Assembly: GCF_004368405.1 (NCBI RefSeq)
Contig: NZ_SBJH01000001.1
Span: 24,266-88,265 of the forward strand
DNA: 64,000 bases
Direction: 5' to 3'
From: Olivibacter sp. XZL3
GTDB lineage: Bacteria; Bacteroidota; Bacteroidia; Sphingobacteriales; Sphingobacteriaceae
The notes beneath the pieces were generated by a model, which saw nothing but the letters and a program-made list of their open reading frames with translations, did no database searches and had not been told where the DNA came from. Both the position numbers and the translations under genes were made by a program. Shown piece by piece: positions 57,035 through 63,447 of this stretch (the first letter of the stretch is position 1; each line of letters starts with the position of its first letter).

Positions 57035-57811
57035 TTACTCAAAAGCCGACATGATATTCGCAGCACTGCCCGAACTTTCTGCGTGACCAGTGAGTTTTGC
57101 AAAAATATGCTCAAGGGAGTTACCATGATCGGCTTTCAGTTGTTCAAATGTGCCATTCGCTACGATACGTCCCTTATTGATCAATAAGATCCTATCCGAG
57201 ACTTTTTCTACCACATCCATCATATGCGAGCAGTAAAAAATGGTCTTTCCCTCCTTAGCTAGCAAGGATATGAGTTCCTTAACAATAATCACGGCATTCG
57301 CATCTAAACCCGACAAGGGTTCGTCAAGAATAAGTATTTTCGGATTATGAATAATACCGGATACCAGCAACACTTTTTGTTTCATCCCTTTAGAAAAGGT
57401 ATCCATCCGTTTATTGAACGATTCACCCAGCCCGAAAGCAGTTAACAGTCTTGTCGCTCGCTCCGTTATTACAGATGCATCCATCCCATACAGTTTGCCA
57501 ACAAAGTCGAGGTATTCTAAAGGGCTTAACACGTCGTACAGCTCCGCGTTCTCCGGCACATAGCCCATAATCGCTTTAATAGGCAACACTTGGTCTTTTA
57601 AGTGCATTTGATCAATAGTGATGTTGCCTTCGAAATCCTCAATGAGTCCGGTCAGAATTTTAACCGTTGTTGATTTACCGGCGCCATTGGGGCCAATGTA
57701 ACCGATTACTTCACCTGGATAAATTTCAAGGTCAATCCCTTTCAAGACCTCTTTATCGCCATAACTTTTATGAAGATTCTGTATCCGTATGATAGGTTCA
57801 TATTGGTTCAT
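57035..57811 (-). CDS. ABC transporter ATP-binding protein
   Basis: ATPase of 258 residues: Walker A GPNGAGKST near 38, signature FSKGMKQK near 140, Walker B ILILDEPLSGLD near 158 and the switch His in CSHMMD near 195. It is of the ABC-2 exporter class, paired with the following permease. The signature departs from LSGGQ but FSKGM is a known variant in this class. Confidence 0.93.
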   Translation of the reverse strand: MNQYEPIIRIQNLHKSYGDKEVLKGIDLEIYPGEVIGYIGPNGAGKSTTVKILTGLIEDFEGNITIDQMHLKDQVLPIKAIMGYVPENAELYDVLSPLEYLDFVGKLYGMDASVITERATRLLTAFGLGESFNKRMDTFSKGMKQKVLLVSGIIHNPKILILDEPLSGLDANAVIIVKELISLLAKEGKTIFYCSHMMDVVEKVSDRILLINKGRIVANGTFEQLKADHGNSLEHIFAKLTGHAESSGSAANIMSAFE

Positions 57812-58023
57812 TCTTCAAGTTTCTTGTTTATAAAAAGCAAGATAACAAATTCTTGACGTTCTTGTAAACTTTTCAAGGCAGAAAGCAAGACTTAGCAAAA
57901 AAAAGGAAGGTATCTAATTCAGATTTCAGACTTTTTTCGGCGGAACCTGTAACACCAAGAATGCTACTCTCTTTTTATCGCGGATTGTGAGGTTTAACTT
58001 TGTTTCAGACACTTAAAAACTAA

Positions 58024-58314
58024 CTATAAAAGTCCCCAGATATAGAAACCTGCAAACAAAAATTCAAAAACCAGAATGATATTGAAAAACAAATTCCTTC
58101 GATGAACAAGAAGAAATCCGATAGCCAAGACCGTGAGAGCGATTAAGAAAAAGTTGAATCCTTTGGGGCTGACAAAGCCGGGAATATATTGACGATAATG
58201 CTCCATACGTCCCACATAGCTTGTAAACTTTCTAAATGTGTTTATCCACAATGCAAGATAAATCCCATTCAGCATTAGGGAGGTTAAAGCTAGTAGTTGT
58301 ATTATTTTTTTCAT
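58024..58314 (-). CDS. Small three-helix membrane protein paired with the Cys-rich lipoprotein
   Basis: I do not recognise this 96-residue protein. Hydropathy gives three membrane helices (about 5-25, 53-71 and 75-96) with a short basic-aromatic loop (TSYVGRMEHYRQYIPGF) between the first two. Its ATG lies 6 bases after the stop of the Cys-rich lipoprotein gene, so they are one transcript. No gene follows on this strand for 213 bases. A protective, anchoring or export role for the upstream product is possible but unproven. Confidence 0.7.
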   Translation of the reverse strand: MKKIIQLLALTSLMLNGIYLALWINTFRKFTSYVGRMEHYRQYIPGFVSPKGFNFFLIALTVLAIGFLLVHRRNLFFNIILVFEFLFAGFYIWGLL

Positions 58315-58320
58315 AACTAA

Positions 58321-59337
58321 CTAACAACTAGCTTCTGGTTCACAGCCCCATAGGCAATACCAATCGTCACAACACCAACAAATGATATCATGAGCTAAAC
58401 ATAAGCCTGCAGATAACCAACAACAGCCGGAATAATTACCGCAACAACCGATATCACTGCCACTTGGTCCATCTTGACAATCGGGCTCTTCTGTATAGGC
58501 GGTGGCGTCCAGTCTTCCAGTAATGGAAGAAGAGCTAGTTGTTCTCGCTCCTTTATAAAAGGCATTATACTTCGCGACTCTTGCCTGGAAGCTTTTTTTT
58601 GTTTCAAATAATCCATATAGCCTATCTATAGAAATTTCATCTTCACTCGCATGCGCACGTATATAGTCGGCTATCTTTTCGATTTCGTCTTTTCGATCAG
58701 TTTTCACATTCTGCACAATGGCAAGCACAGCCTTAGTATTAATTTTAAGGTCTTCTTGACAAAAGAAAGGACCCTTGTTTACGTAATAAGCAGGATCCGG
58801 AGTGCAGTTACACTCTTCGCCGTTCTGAAGACTTCTGTTAACCACATTCAATACCGCGTTGTGAAAATAGATGGATTGGGCCAACGGGGAAGTTTTTATA
58901 ATTTCTTTAGATGACAGAATCTTTCTGCCAAATATTTCATACTGTCCAGTGATATACCGTATCTCTTCAGTCGTAAATGTAGATAACAACTTATTTGCTT
59001 GCTCAACGACCTTATTATGAAGATCGAATTTAAAGCCGTCCAGATTTTCATCCAAAATAAAATCGGTCTCGACCTGTTCACCTCCTTTGCCTGATATTAA
59101 TTTAGATGAAGTACGGCCATTATCTGTCTCCGCAGAGTAAGCAAATGAAACGATTCCCATATTTATGGACGCAGAGAGCTTATCCGAGCTGGTTATTGTC
59201 AGACTCACATCGGTTTCATAATTTGTTTCTGCCGAAATATTACGGCCGTCCGCACGATTTGATGTTTTTTGGCAAGAAACACATAAACAAAACAAAATCG
59301 TTGTAAAAATAATTCGAATAGGTCTAAATGTTTTCAT
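58321..59337 (-). CDS. Lipoprotein with 12-cysteine C-terminal tail, unrecognised
   Basis: Unrecognised protein of 338 residues. The start has a signal-like stretch ending CLCVSCQKT (likely lipoprotein Cys near 22). Residues ~30-280 look like a mixed domain with a short Cys patch (EECNCTPDP). The last 54 residues hold 12 Cys (287, 298, 299, 305, 306, 313, 320, 322, 323, 328, 332, 338), including GCCGNYSGCC and CLAHDIICWCC, and the chain ends on Cys. CLAHD recalls the His-Asp pair of phospholipase A2, but spacing differs and I do not assert it. Base use looks more AT-rich than in neighbours. Two direct repeats lie in the upstream region. Confidence 0.75.
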   Translation of the reverse strand: MKTFRPIRIIFTTILFCLCVSCQKTSNRADGRNISAETNYETDVSLTITSSDKLSASINMGIVSFAYSAETDNGRTSSKLISGKGGEQVETDFILDENLDGFKFDLHNKVVEQANKLLSTFTTEEIRYITGQYEIFGRKILSSKEIIKTSPLAQSIYFHNAVLNVVNRSLQNGEECNCTPDPAYYVNKGPFFCQEDLKINTKAVLAIVQNVKTDRKDEIEKIADYIRAHASEDEISIDRLYGLFETKKSFQARVAKYNAFYKGARTTSSSSITGRLDATAYTEEPDCQDGPSGSDIGCCGNYSGCCWLSAGLCLAHDIICWCCDDWYCLWGCEPEASC

Positions 59338-59903
59338 ACACGAATATTTTTACCAGAAAGTTAGTATTTTTTTCGTAAAAAAATCGTTTTAAACAAAAAA
59401 AATCGTTTTGTTTGGCATATTTTCGTTAAATCAATATTTCGTTATCTGAAAAGACATTAATTTATTAACGACGTATATCCGATACGAGCACTTTCTTTTC
59501 AAATCTATTTTAAAATTGATTATCTTATCTTGGAATAGCCTTATTTACGATCATTGTCTGTTGAAAGAACGTTGTAATGAATACTCGAGCAGCAATTTCC
59601 TATGTAAGTCTAAAAAAATAAGGTTTCATTTAGCTAATCCTTCTAAGAGCCCTCGTGACTTCCTTTATTGGCATTTGTTATGCGGGTACGCATAAGGGCT
59701 TCAGCAGAGGCAAAGCGGATTGAGCAAGAGACGCCGACTGCGCCATCGACGCTTTGTATCAAATCTACCACAGGCTTCACAAGCCTAATTTATTCGCGTA
59801 TGTTTGTTTCTAAGGAGTTCATGAACTCATCGTTACGCTCTTCGGTTTTGTCCAGCTATTGACTAAGCAAATCTGGTCGCCTGCGCGGCGAAAGAGCGCA
59901 CAA
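59338..59903. other. Long gene-free stretch: promoter repeats and dispersed element
   Basis: The left 130 bases are very AT-rich and contain the direct repeats at 59,377-59,409. From about 59,640 to 59,890 the sequence becomes GC-richer and has the look of a conserved non-coding element: hairpin AGGCTT-CAC-AAGCCT (59,773-59,787 region), and a gapped 25-base match to 192-216. A 64-codon frame at 59,668-59,862 shows no protein features and I do not call it a gene. Confidence 0.45.
59377..59409. repeat. Direct repeat upstream of the Cys-rich lipoprotein gene
   Basis: AAAAAAATCGTTTT occurs at 59,377-59,390 and again at 59,396-59,409, a 19-base period (about two helical turns), 40-72 bases upstream of the ATG at 59,337. 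It could be a regulator site. Confidence 0.5.
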
Positions 59904-61613
59904 CTAAAGCCCATCACCATATTTAAAAAAGCTATTGACGGTTACTGGCAACCTGCCACTTGCTTTTAATTGACCTGTAATCAATTTAGCAACGGCCCGC
60001 TGGAAGCTGGCATCGTTTTGATAAGCTACTACGAGTGCACCGGCATCTTCTAAACCCGGAAATGCGGCAATGCTATAAGGATTTGCAAAGACATTGAATA
60101 CGGCATTTTTGCCAGCCAGCTCGCTAATAAAGAGATTGACTTCCTGACTATAATTCAACTTGCTTTGCGGCCGCAATCGTTGGTCGTGCACGGCTACGAG
60201 GACCTGCTTATAATTTTTAAGTTCATCCGCCACTTTAGCGACTTCAGCACCCGTTGCCTTTGCCGGTAATACAAAATGTAAACTGTTTTCAAAATGGGCG
60301 CCTAACAGTTGCTGAAAGGTACTCAATTCATCAACGCCAATGCTTACTAATGCTGTTCTTTCCGTTGGCTTTAGCTGTCTGATTAAGCTATCTCCCTTCA
60401 ATAGTGTAATGGCGGCATCGGCCAATTGCTGATTCAGCGCTCTTGCCTGTTCGTTGTTAAGGTCTTGATACAGATTCTCTGTGGCTGTTACCTGCCACTG
60501 GTTCAATCCTAACCAGTATTTAGCAGCCAAGATCTTCTTGACCCGAGCATTGATATCATTCCAAGAGAGCCGGTCTTTTCGAATCGCTTTTCTCACTTTC
60601 TTAATAGCACGTTTACTGTTTTCCGACAGCTCCAAAACGTCGTTTCCCGCTATAATGGCCCGCACATCGGCTTCGCCATTCTGAAAATATTTGACCACGC
60701 CCTTCATATCCATGGCATCGGTAAAGGTAAGGCCTCTAAAACCCATTTTTTCTTTCAAGATACCGGTAATGACGTTCTTTGAAAGCGAAGAAGGCAGGTT
60801 GGCGGTTGTATCTAAGGCCGGGATATTCATATGTGCCACCATCACTCCAGACGCTCCCTGCTTAATCAGTTCACGGAAGGGGTACATCTCAAGCGAGTCT
60901 AAACGGGCTGTTGTAAAGTTCAAACTCGGCAGGTCGTAATGAGAGTCTACGTCAGTATCTCCGTGCCCCGGAAAATGTTTCAGCGTGATGATAAGGCCGG
61001 CGTCCATCATTCCCTTCATGTAGGCACCTCCTTTTCGGGTCACATTGAACTTGTTTTCACCAAAAGAACGGAAGTTGATAACCGGATTGTTAGGGTTATT
61101 GTTCACATCGACGTCCGGCGCGAAATTGATGTTCAGACCAATTCGCTTAAAATGACGGGCCACTTCCTGCCCCATTTCGTAAATGAGCTGTTCATTTTGC
61201 ACAGCGCCTAAAGCCATTTGATAAGGAAAAGAAACAGTGGAATCCATCAAGCGCATTCCCAGTCCCCATTCCCCATCTAAGGCCATCAACAAAGGGACTT
61301 TCGAAAGTTGTTGATACCTGTTGATAAGATCAGCATGCCTATGTGGGCCACCCTGAAAAAGCACTACACCGCCCAACTTTTGCTTTTTAATTACTTTGGC
61401 GACCGAATCGCTATAAGCATCCCCTAAGTTCGTGTGCGCGCGAACCATGAACATCTGCGCTATCCGCTCCCTTTTATTTAGTTTCTTGAAAACAGAATCT
61501 ACCCATTCATGTTCTTGATTAATAAAGTCAATAAACGGGGTATGCGATTGAGCAGAAAGTTGGCGCGAAACGGTCACAACTAGCAAAAGAATCAGACAGG
61601 CTTTTCTTAACAT
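59904..61613 (-). CDS. GH3 beta-N-acetylhexosaminidase-like enzyme, copy 2
   Basis: Exported glycoside hydrolase family 3 protein of 569 residues with a signal peptide (LLLVVTVSRQLSAQ). The NagZ-type acid/base loop is intact: KHFPGHGDTDVDSHYDLP near 210, and the nucleophile Asp is in FTDAMDMKGV near 300. A second alpha/beta GH3 domain follows and lacks the serine-hydrolase extension found in many Bacteroidota GH3 proteins of double length. It should act on muropeptides or chitin-like oligosaccharides in the periplasm. It lies 127 bases downstream of a close paralogue. Confidence 0.9.
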   Translation of the reverse strand: MLRKACLILLLVVTVSRQLSAQSHTPFIDFINQEHEWVDSVFKKLNKRERIAQMFMVRAHTNLGDAYSDSVAKVIKKQKLGGVVLFQGGPHRHADLINRYQQLSKVPLLMALDGEWGLGMRLMDSTVSFPYQMALGAVQNEQLIYEMGQEVARHFKRIGLNINFAPDVDVNNNPNNPVINFRSFGENKFNVTRKGGAYMKGMMDAGLIITLKHFPGHGDTDVDSHYDLPSLNFTTARLDSLEMYPFRELIKQGASGVMVAHMNIPALDTTANLPSSLSKNVITGILKEKMGFRGLTFTDAMDMKGVVKYFQNGEADVRAIIAGNDVLELSENSKRAIKKVRKAIRKDRLSWNDINARVKKILAAKYWLGLNQWQVTATENLYQDLNNEQARALNQQLADAAITLLKGDSLIRQLKPTERTALVSIGVDELSTFQQLLGAHFENSLHFVLPAKATGAEVAKVADELKNYKQVLVAVHDQRLRPQSKLNYSQEVNLFISELAGKNAVFNVFANPYSIAAFPGLEDAGALVVAYQNDASFQRAVAKLITGQLKASGRLPVTVNSFFKYGDGL

Positions 61614-61740
61614 ATCAATTAGTAAAAACCAAACATAAAGATAATTGCTGTTTTATGCAACCGGATTATAGCCAAGCAAGAGCAATAGCTCTCGTTTATG
61701 CAATTCCATTGGATAAAAACGCAAAAACAGGCCCTAAAAG

Positions 61741-63447
61741 CTATAATCCATCTCCATATCTAAAGAAGGTATTAACTGTGACTGGCAGTTTTCCGCTTGG
61801 CGTCAAGCTGCGTAAGATAACTTTCGCCCCGGCCCTTTGCAGCTCATCGTCGTTTTGATAGCCGACCACCATACTTTTACAGGCCTCAATACCGGGCATC
61901 CCTGCCAAGGCATAGGGATTAGCGAAGACGCAAAAAATACTATTCATATTCGCCAACTCGTTAATGAACAAGCGAACGGTACCACTGAAATTAATTTTGC
62001 TTTGCGGGGATTTCCTTACATCATGAAGCGCCACAATAATTTGCTTATAGCGAATCAATTCAACAGATACTTTGGCGATATCATTTGGTTTGGCATCGGG
62101 TGCAATAACAAATTTCAACGCATTATCGAACTTGCTTTCCAACTCGTTCTGAAAGGTCGTCAATTCGCGGTCGCCTATACTGATAATCGCTGTACGTTTC
62201 GTATAATCGATTGCGCGGATTAGGCTATCGCCCTTCAATAAAGTGACCGCCGCATCGGCGAGGCTTTGCTTCAATTTTTTTGTTTCTGGCCGATTCAATT
62301 CTCTATAGAGCCCATTAAGCGGCACTACTTGTCTTTTGTCTAAACCAAGCCACAGTTTTGCCGCCAGAATTTTTTTCACTTTGGCGTCAAGTTCTGCCTG
62401 GCTAATTCGCTTGTCTTTAATGGCTTTAGCCACCATGGATATCGCTCTTTTCGTGTTTTGAGATAACTCCAGGATGTCGTTTCCGGCGATAACAGCTCGC
62501 ACATCAGCCTCTCCGTTTCTGAAGTACTTGACCACACCGTTCATGTCCATGGCATCCGTAAAGACCAATCCTTTAAAGCCAAGATCCCTTTTAAGGAGCC
62601 CATTAATTGCCAAGGGCGACAGTGAAGAGGGCAGATTGGGCGTTTTGTCTAAAGCCGGGATATTCATATGCGCCACCATGACGCCCGATGCGCCCTCCCG
62701 GATCAATCGCCTAAAAGGATATAATTCAAGCGAATCAAGTCGGGCCCGACTAAAAGCTAACTGCGGCAAATCTTTATGTGAATCAACTTCGGTATCGCCG
62801 TGGCCTGGAAAATGTTTTAAGGTAATCAGGATATGTTCATCCATCATACCCCGCATATAAGCACTCGCTTTGCGGGTAACGTTTTCCTTATTTTCGCCGA
62901 AGGAGCGAAAATTAATGACGGGATTTCTCGGGTTGTTATTTATGTCCACTACCGGCGCAAAATTCACGTTTAAGCCCAGTCGCTTAAAGTCCTTTGCAAT
63001 TTCGCGTCCCATGTTGTACAAAAGCCGTTCGTCCCGAACAGCCCCTAAAGTCATTTGGTAGGGATAAGACACGGTGGAATCACCTAAGCGCATGCCGAGG
63101 CCCCATTCGCCATCCAGTGCCATCAGTAGTGGCACCTTGGCGCGCGCCTGATAAGCGTTTATGGCAGCAGCATGCCTGCGGGGGCCTCCCTGAAAGAACA
63201 CCACTCCACCCAGTTGCTCGTCCGAAATTACTTTTGCTACTGAATCGATATACCGCTGGCCTAAATTAGTATGGGCCCTTACCATAAAGAGTTGCGCAAT
63301 CTTTTCATTTTGACTTAAGCGATTAAACATCGAATCCACCCAAGGATGAGCAGCGTGGATAAAGCTCGAAAAATCCGCTTGCTGTTGTGCAGACAGGCGC
63401 AAAAGCGGCAAGAAAAATAGATATAGCAGTACCAGTTTTTTAACCAT
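61741..63447 (-). CDS. GH3 beta-N-acetylhexosaminidase-like enzyme, copy 1
   Basis: Paralogue of the downstream gene, 568 residues, aligning over the full length with high similarity (for example KHFPGHGDTEVDSHKDLP and FTDAMDMNGV). It has a signal peptide (LFFLPLLRLSAQQ) and both GH3 domains. The start ATG is buried in an 8-bp hairpin with an upstream 8-codon mini-ORF (63,478-63,452), so its translation may be limited. The two copies probably share a transcript or at least a function. Confidence 0.9.
   Translation of the reverse strand: MVKKLVLLYLFFLPLLRLSAQQQADFSSFIHAAHPWVDSMFNRLSQNEKIAQLFMVRAHTNLGQRYIDSVAKVISDEQLGGVVFFQGGPRRHAAAINAYQARAKVPLLMALDGEWGLGMRLGDSTVSYPYQMTLGAVRDERLLYNMGREIAKDFKRLGLNVNFAPVVDINNNPRNPVINFRSFGENKENVTRKASAYMRGMMDEHILITLKHFPGHGDTEVDSHKDLPQLAFSRARLDSLELYPFRRLIREGASGVMVAHMNIPALDKTPNLPSSLSPLAINGLLKRDLGFKGLVFTDAMDMNGVVKYFRNGEADVRAVIAGNDILELSQNTKRAISMVAKAIKDKRISQAELDAKVKKILAAKLWLGLDKRQVVPLNGLYRELNRPETKKLKQSLADAAVTLLKGDSLIRAIDYTKRTAIISIGDRELTTFQNELESKFDNALKFVIAPDAKPNDIAKVSVELIRYKQIIVALHDVRKSPQSKINFSGTVRLFINELANMNSIFCVFANPYALAGMPGIEACKSMVVGYQNDDELQRAGAKVILRSLTPSGKLPVTVNTFFRYGDGL

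Follow-up and report, generated by a model that had tools for sequence, protein, structure and literature searches.

A cysteine-rich lipoprotein tail and a three-helix membrane partner as a candidate toxin-immunity unit of Bacteroidota

SitA of myxobacteria is a lipoprotein toxin with a C-terminal toxin part and an immunity gene directly downstream (PMC5562445). SitA C-termini vary on related N-termini, and a dedicated secretion apparatus is unneeded; the toxin parts are nuclease domains acting in the cytoplasm, transfer relies on outer-membrane exchange, and some loci have an upstream SitB (PMC5562445). The halocin C8 precursor ProC8 (283 amino acids) consists of an N-domain and a 76-residue C-terminal peptide that is released as the bacteriocin; export is by the Tat route, and its own N-part (HalI) provides immunity (PMC11509114). 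Bacteroidetocins are disulfide-bonded peptide toxins of Bacteroidota, 42 amino acids long, with four cysteines and a 15-residue double-glycine leader. They are encoded together with a transmembrane protein, a thiol oxidoreductase and a peptidase-ABC exporter, and the transmembrane gene gave no immunity (PMC6671954).

We analyzed a gene pair in a 64,000-nucleotide stretch of the Olivibacter sp. XZL3 genome, the whole of which is referred to below as the window. The two ORFs are separated by a spacer of 6 bp and encode a 338-residue lipoprotein-like precursor and a 96-residue protein with three hydrophobic segments (Table 1). A sequence-only reading of this DNA had pointed to a Cys-terminal tail with 12 Cys in the last 54 residues and to a three-helix membrane gene 6 bases downstream, and both were confirmed in the minus-strand ORFs. 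The precursor ends in ...DCQDGPSGSDIGCCGNYSGCCWLSAGLCLAHDIICWCCDDWYCLWGCEPEASC and starts with a signal peptide and, as assigned by reading the sequence, a lipobox-like CVSC followed by Q (C22). The region before the tail, previously described as Cys-poor, does have few Cys but is not free of them (C176, C178 and C193, all three conserved in many relatives). Base composition sets the locus apart from its neighbours, as had been noticed, with 33-40% G+C in genes and flanks against 44% in the window: 39.7% in the 338-residue gene, 35.7% in the 96-residue gene, 36.9% in the 566 bp upstream and 33.5% in the 212 bp downstream, compared with 44.4% over the window and with 45.3% and 42.1% in the upstream and downstream neighbours, respectively. 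The 566-bp upstream region is single copy in its own genome, apart from one weak 58-bp match, and was rejected as a repeat or IS remnant.

Table 1. Features of the gene pair and its surroundings, in window positions.
Feature	Position	Strand	Basis
338-residue lipoprotein-like precursor	58321..59337	minus	ORF list (ATG), AlphaFold model, homologues
Parts of the precursor: signal peptide with lipobox Cys, residues 1-22; N-domain, residues ~45-270; linker; Cys-rich tail, residues 285-338			
Cys-rich tail, residues 285-338, 12 Cys; candidate toxin/effector module	58324..58485	minus	23-tail alignment, Cys parity
96-residue three-helix membrane protein, candidate immunity protein, type 1, C-terminus ...IWGLL	58024..58314	minus	ORF (ATG), homologous and orphan partners
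2,092-bp AT-rich interval holding the pair, from GH3 (NagZ-like) gene to ABC-transporter ATPase gene	57812..59903		Synteny
Upstream intergenic region of the pair, 566 bp; promoter region and unexplained non-coding DNA	59338..59903		

Neither protein of the pair scored above the cut-off in Pfam, NCBIfam or PADLOC. A putAbiC hit (PF16872, E 0.056) fell under the cut-off, was obtained for the window protein only, and was taken as chance.

We interpret the pair as a bacteriocin-like toxin-immunity unit of a new family, with a probability that we put at about 65%. Layout, linkage, co-variation, cassette switching and mobility all fit a bacteriocin-like toxin with its immunity protein; they are described in the following paragraphs.

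The same tail was identified in 24 further genes from about 20 Bacteroidota genomes. A search of related genomes found it in G038, together with a decayed tail fragment in G019; a two-row tail profile added G351 and G069, and a scan of 84,980 species genomes yielded 24 tail loci, essentially all in Bacteroidota. The 25 distinct tail genes examined include the window gene and tandem copies at L019 and L033; L025 and L027 are the same gene and were counted once. An Alistipes locus (L038) was discarded as a frame artefact, with only 10 matching residues within an unrelated ORF. The tail core, CCGNY-x-G-x-C-x6-C-x2-HD-x2-C-x2-C...C...C, is invariant, and the alignment of 23 tails has 15 invariant columns (G293, C298, C299, G300, N301, Y302, G304, C306, C313, H316, D317, C320, C323, C328 and C332). 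The tail is not a chance sequence, because these Cys, Gly, Asn, Tyr, His and Asp residues recur in about 20 other genomes.

A search of the tail against protein databases, suggested in the first reading, led to no known family: the 23-row tail profile matched no PDB sequence at E-values up to 10, and single tails gave nothing beyond single chance matches in Pfam and NCBIfam. Literature searches limited to open-licence papers found no published description of the tail. The family of tail pairs looks like an undescribed one, matched by no curated protein family. In the absence of a Pfam or NCBIfam model and of a PADLOC match, annotation pipelines and bacteriocin mining would probably miss it.

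The tail is found on unrelated N-domains, as had been proposed for inspection. When the window protein was compared with the G038 protein, the tail alone aligned (45% identity over 44 residues, E 9e-10). Tail-bearing N-domains are of four kinds: the window kind with the signature C-x-C-x-x-x-P-x-Y/F...F-x-C-QED (A8), a second kind with QDVYEG...F-x-x-N-ED (A9), the L021 kind and the G038 kind. The window and QDVYEG types may have an F...ED stretch in common, to which hhalign gives a probability of 22%. A lipobox-like Cys could be read near the N-terminus of the window protein and most homologues, two homologues (L017 and L028) have a plain signal peptide, and the G038-kind N-domain has no signal peptide. 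The tail-bearing proteins are small, mostly 297-488 amino acids. The window-kind N-domain was present in only 3 of 395 class genomes, always with this tail and never with another one. Two weak N-domain matches were set aside, L049 as antisense to or overlapping unrelated ORFs and L050 as marginal.

Tandem genes in G038 (L006:1540-4651) are 95.25% identical at the DNA level across 779 nt, a stretch that begins 86 nt ahead of the start and takes in the whole N-domain; beyond it they diverge completely. The first copy has a GCCGNYKGCC tail and, downstream, a type-1 partner whose sequence is 29% identical to that of the window partner over 51 residues (E 0.001); the second has a Cys-rich tail of another sort, and the gene downstream of it encodes an unrelated membrane protein of 117 residues. 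A third N-domain fragment lies after the tandem genes, and this N-domain carries other C-termini in other genomes. Judged from these sequences, the switch is a hallmark of polymorphic toxin cassettes, and we regard it as the strongest single piece of evidence. Cassette switching is established here on the G038 N-domain, which is different from that of the window protein.

Two further observations were made on the G038-type proteins. The second tail with its 117-residue membrane protein is a further, unassigned toxin-immunity candidate. The signal-less G038-type N-domain (also in L058, L059, L060, L061, L064, L065 and L067) represents a broader family in Bacteroidota whose C-termini vary and whose members are often broken, and the G038 copies match no Pfam or NCBIfam model.

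Co-occurrence of the small membrane gene, the other check envisaged in the sequence-only reading, was found for 18 of the 25 tail genes. In these, the next ORF encodes 91-116 amino acids, as a rule with three hydrophobic segments, and is usually no more than 40 bp away and never more than 175 bp. Type-1 partners (window, L016, L017, L018, L023, L024, L028, L029 and L037) mostly end near W-x-L, and type-2 partners have an E-L-x-T-I-P-like motif. Among the sequences compared, similarity between partners correlates better with similarity between tails (Mantel r 0.44, P 0.0002) than with similarity between N-domains (Mantel r 0.23, P 0.013; 18 pairs in both cases, kinship ignored). The residue after Cys313, Leu or Tyr, sorts with type 1 or type 2 (7:1 versus 1:8, Fisher P 0.003, kinship ignored).

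Partners can also occur alone. Lone type-1 partners were found in four genomes (G308, G194, G167 and G191) with no tail detectable at E 0.1, and G308 belongs to the same genus as the tail-bearing G069. Relatives of the type-2 partner are often alone, so that type 2 may serve a more general role and orphan status is weaker evidence for this type.

Seven of the 25 tail genes are partner-less (L015, L019a, L019b, L030, L032, L033a and L033b). Five of these seven encode a C-terminal extension of at least 109 amino acids beyond an internal tail, and the tail therefore need not be a free terminal peptide. Extensions of 109-156 residues follow the tail in genes of L019, L020, L030 and L033, five out of six without a membrane partner, and the extension may replace the partner in those genes. 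The N-domain itself may also act as immunity, above all in partner-less homologues. The partner-less tail gene of L015 (L015:4638-7186) has a four-helix DUF4199-like gene on one side and a glycosyltransferase gene on the other, and may be a further case of insertion into a conserved gene pair.

The window pair is an insertion: the flanking GH3 and ABC-transporter ATPase genes nearly abut in three congeners (about 221, 62 and 60 bp apart in G001, G003 and G004); in the window they are 2,092 bp apart, with the pair in between. A SusC/SusD-like pair occupies the same site in G002. The gene upstream of the pair, a GH3 NagZ-like enzyme, is common to tail-less congeners. The wider region (57035-63447) contains two tandem GH3 NagZ-like paralogues, in an order conserved across the genus, and then the ABC transporter, and the site between the paralogues and the transporter is variable in the genus.

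Related pairs are sporadic across the phylum in the genomes sampled. The tail was present in 5 of 395 class genomes; of another 395 genomes, sampled from the phylum, only that of the window and G019, which is of the same family, were seen to have it. Decayed copies (the G019 tail fragment, an in-frame stop in L023, truncated N-parts in L019 and L035) point to turnover. The pair matched no plasmid or phage records and no viral contig was confirmed, so that we have no evidence for a phage or plasmid vehicle.

The number of Cys residues, counted from 26 residues before the core to the protein end, is even in 21 of the 25 tails (P 0.0005 versus a coin toss, kinship ignored). Cys305 is replaced by Pro in three genes (L019b, L020 and L035), all of which also lack an upstream Cys, and at least one upstream Cys is present wherever Cys305 is. 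The extra Cys322 and the terminal Cys338 of the window tail come as a pair, too. Mostly even numbers and loss in pairs favour disulfides over metal. The earlier proposal of a disulfide-rich or metal-binding effector thus gained in its first half from parity and co-loss, and its metal half was not favoured.

The same pattern bears on a reading without antagonism, in which the tail would bind a metal or have a structural part within a surface lipoprotein (for adhesion, binding or stress) and the membrane protein would be an accessory or an unrelated neighbour. The C-x2-H-D-x2-C-x2-C segment could ligate a metal, and both the seven tail genes without partner and the frequently solitary type-2-like ORFs agree with this reading. 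We consider it unlikely, as it is at odds with the paired Cys, with the patchy presence and insertion, with the joint switching of tail and partner, and with their co-variation.

In Pedobacter hiemivivus (L019:52-9606), and in this one genome only, two tail genes, the first without a signal peptide in frame, adjoin a VKOR-thioredoxin-like fusion, a C39-like peptidase ABC exporter and an HlyD-type protein (names assigned from reading the sequences). The VKOR and peptidase-ABC genes of the window's own genome were rejected as machinery of the pair, as they belong to other peptide clusters and are unlinked. That genome also encodes an ATP-grasp and SPASM-like pair with a 74-residue GG-type precursor and VKOR/C39-like proteins (L074, G000:C67), and a lanthipeptide-dehydratase-like gene beside a peptidase ABC exporter (L075, G000:C70).

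AlphaFold predicted the N-domain with confidence, as a five-strand meander followed by helices. The tail was of low confidence in the full model (pLDDT 45-65) and when modeled alone (pLDDT 57), and both models place a helix over or adjoining the C-x2-HD-x2-C segment. In fold searches, no PDB structure matched the full model at an E-value below 0.2, and none matched the poor tail-only model.

The invariant His-Asp pair (H316-D317) is not accounted for by a plain disulfide peptide. Its setting resembles the C-x2-HD motif of phospholipase A2, which we take as a lead only. The tail could then be a very small secreted phospholipase A2-like enzyme directed against neighbours' membranes, and the membrane protein would confer immunity. 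A Ca-loop-like CGNYSG stands before the C-x2-H-D-x2-C helix, the His-Asp and Gly-Asn-Tyr residues are invariant in all aligned tails, and the helix is predicted at the appropriate segment. Solved phospholipase A2 structures are present in the PDB; the tail profile retrieved none of its sequences, no Pfam phospholipase A2 model matched, the fold search was negative (with a poor tail model), and there is no room for the second catalytic helix because only about 20 residues follow the HD. We therefore judge an enzyme of this type to be improbable, somewhat more so than the metal-binding or structural module. A disulfide-rich, pheromone-like signalling peptide with the membrane protein as receptor or export partner would suit a small exported peptide with a linked membrane protein, and orphan membrane genes could be eavesdropping receptors, but it is the least probable reading, given a partner that is a bare three-helix protein of 91-116 residues, no linked regulator or sensor domain, and tandem cassettes with unrelated tails that suit antagonism better.

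For the preferred reading, a toxin-immunity unit, we propose that the precursor would be exported via Sec as an outer-membrane lipoprotein, possibly on the surface or on vesicles; the lipoprotein signal suggests outer-membrane or vesicle display, as for SitA toxins (PMC5562445). The N-domain would carry and present the C-terminal peptide, about 45-54 residues long and held together by five to six disulfides formed in the envelope; the peptide could act after proteolytic release or while still attached. It would attack related Bacteroidota at their envelope, with the inner membrane as the likeliest site, and the three-helix protein in the producer's inner membrane would block it. An antidote that is a membrane protein points to a target within the inner membrane or close to it.

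A broader and more tentative generalization, to which we give somewhat less than even odds, is that of a phylum-wide family of exchangeable, disulfide-stapled warheads of about 50 residues on lipoproteins. They would be delivered in a SitA-like manner, target membranes and be neutralised by tail-matched three-helix proteins, and the His-Asp pair would suggest a catalytic or specific binding site. Lipoprotein-borne, disulfide-stapled warheads may represent a new delivery principle. The units are small and genetically encoded and make a testable prediction, tail-specific immunity, in a phylum about whose antagonistic interactions beyond the gut little is known. If the tail indeed hits Gram-negative neighbours via the envelope, it would be a new antimicrobial scaffold.

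Membership of the pair in the halocin C8, bacteroidetocin or phospholipase A2 groups is not supported. The neighbourhood in P. hiemivivus (one genome) has disulfide-peptide equipment like that of bacteroidetocin loci. Unlike bacteroidetocins, the proteins studied here have a lipoprotein-like signal and 8-12 Cys, a folded domain of about 225 residues instead of a short double-glycine leader precedes the tail, and most tail genomes are without a linked exporter. Size and order of parts are similar to the halocin C8 precursor, but the signal is lipoprotein-like and not Tat-like, and the likely immunity protein is encoded by a separate membrane gene. Halocin and other bacteriocin models in Pfam and NCBIfam gave no match (a comparison via models, not with the HalC8 sequence itself). 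The secreted-peptide/immunity layout suggested at the outset thus stands as regards the absence of a known family, the unrelated N-domains and the partner in 18 of 25 genes, and the link to halocins is one of layout only.

Many polymorphic toxins carry large repeats or VgrG, PAAR or RHS parts, which the present proteins do not have; these are small, and their N-domains and tail match no curated family. The G038 locus resembles polymorphic toxin systems in its constant N-part, exchangeable C-part and matching downstream immunity gene, and in its tandem partial copies and patchy distribution (PMC3482391). A downstream small gene that changes with the C-part is found here as well (18 of 25 genes, the unrelated G038 partners, Mantel r 0.44). 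As in SitA/SitI, there is a lipoprotein-like signal (in the window protein and most homologues), a C-terminal module and a downstream partner gene. In contrast to SitA/SitI, the C-terminal module is small and Cys-rich, the partner is a membrane protein, and the window locus has a GH3 NagZ-like gene upstream of the pair and no sitB-type accessory gene. By analogy, SitA/SitI would be the closest system in principle, polymorphic toxins in genetics, halocin C8 in layout and bacteroidetocins in host group.
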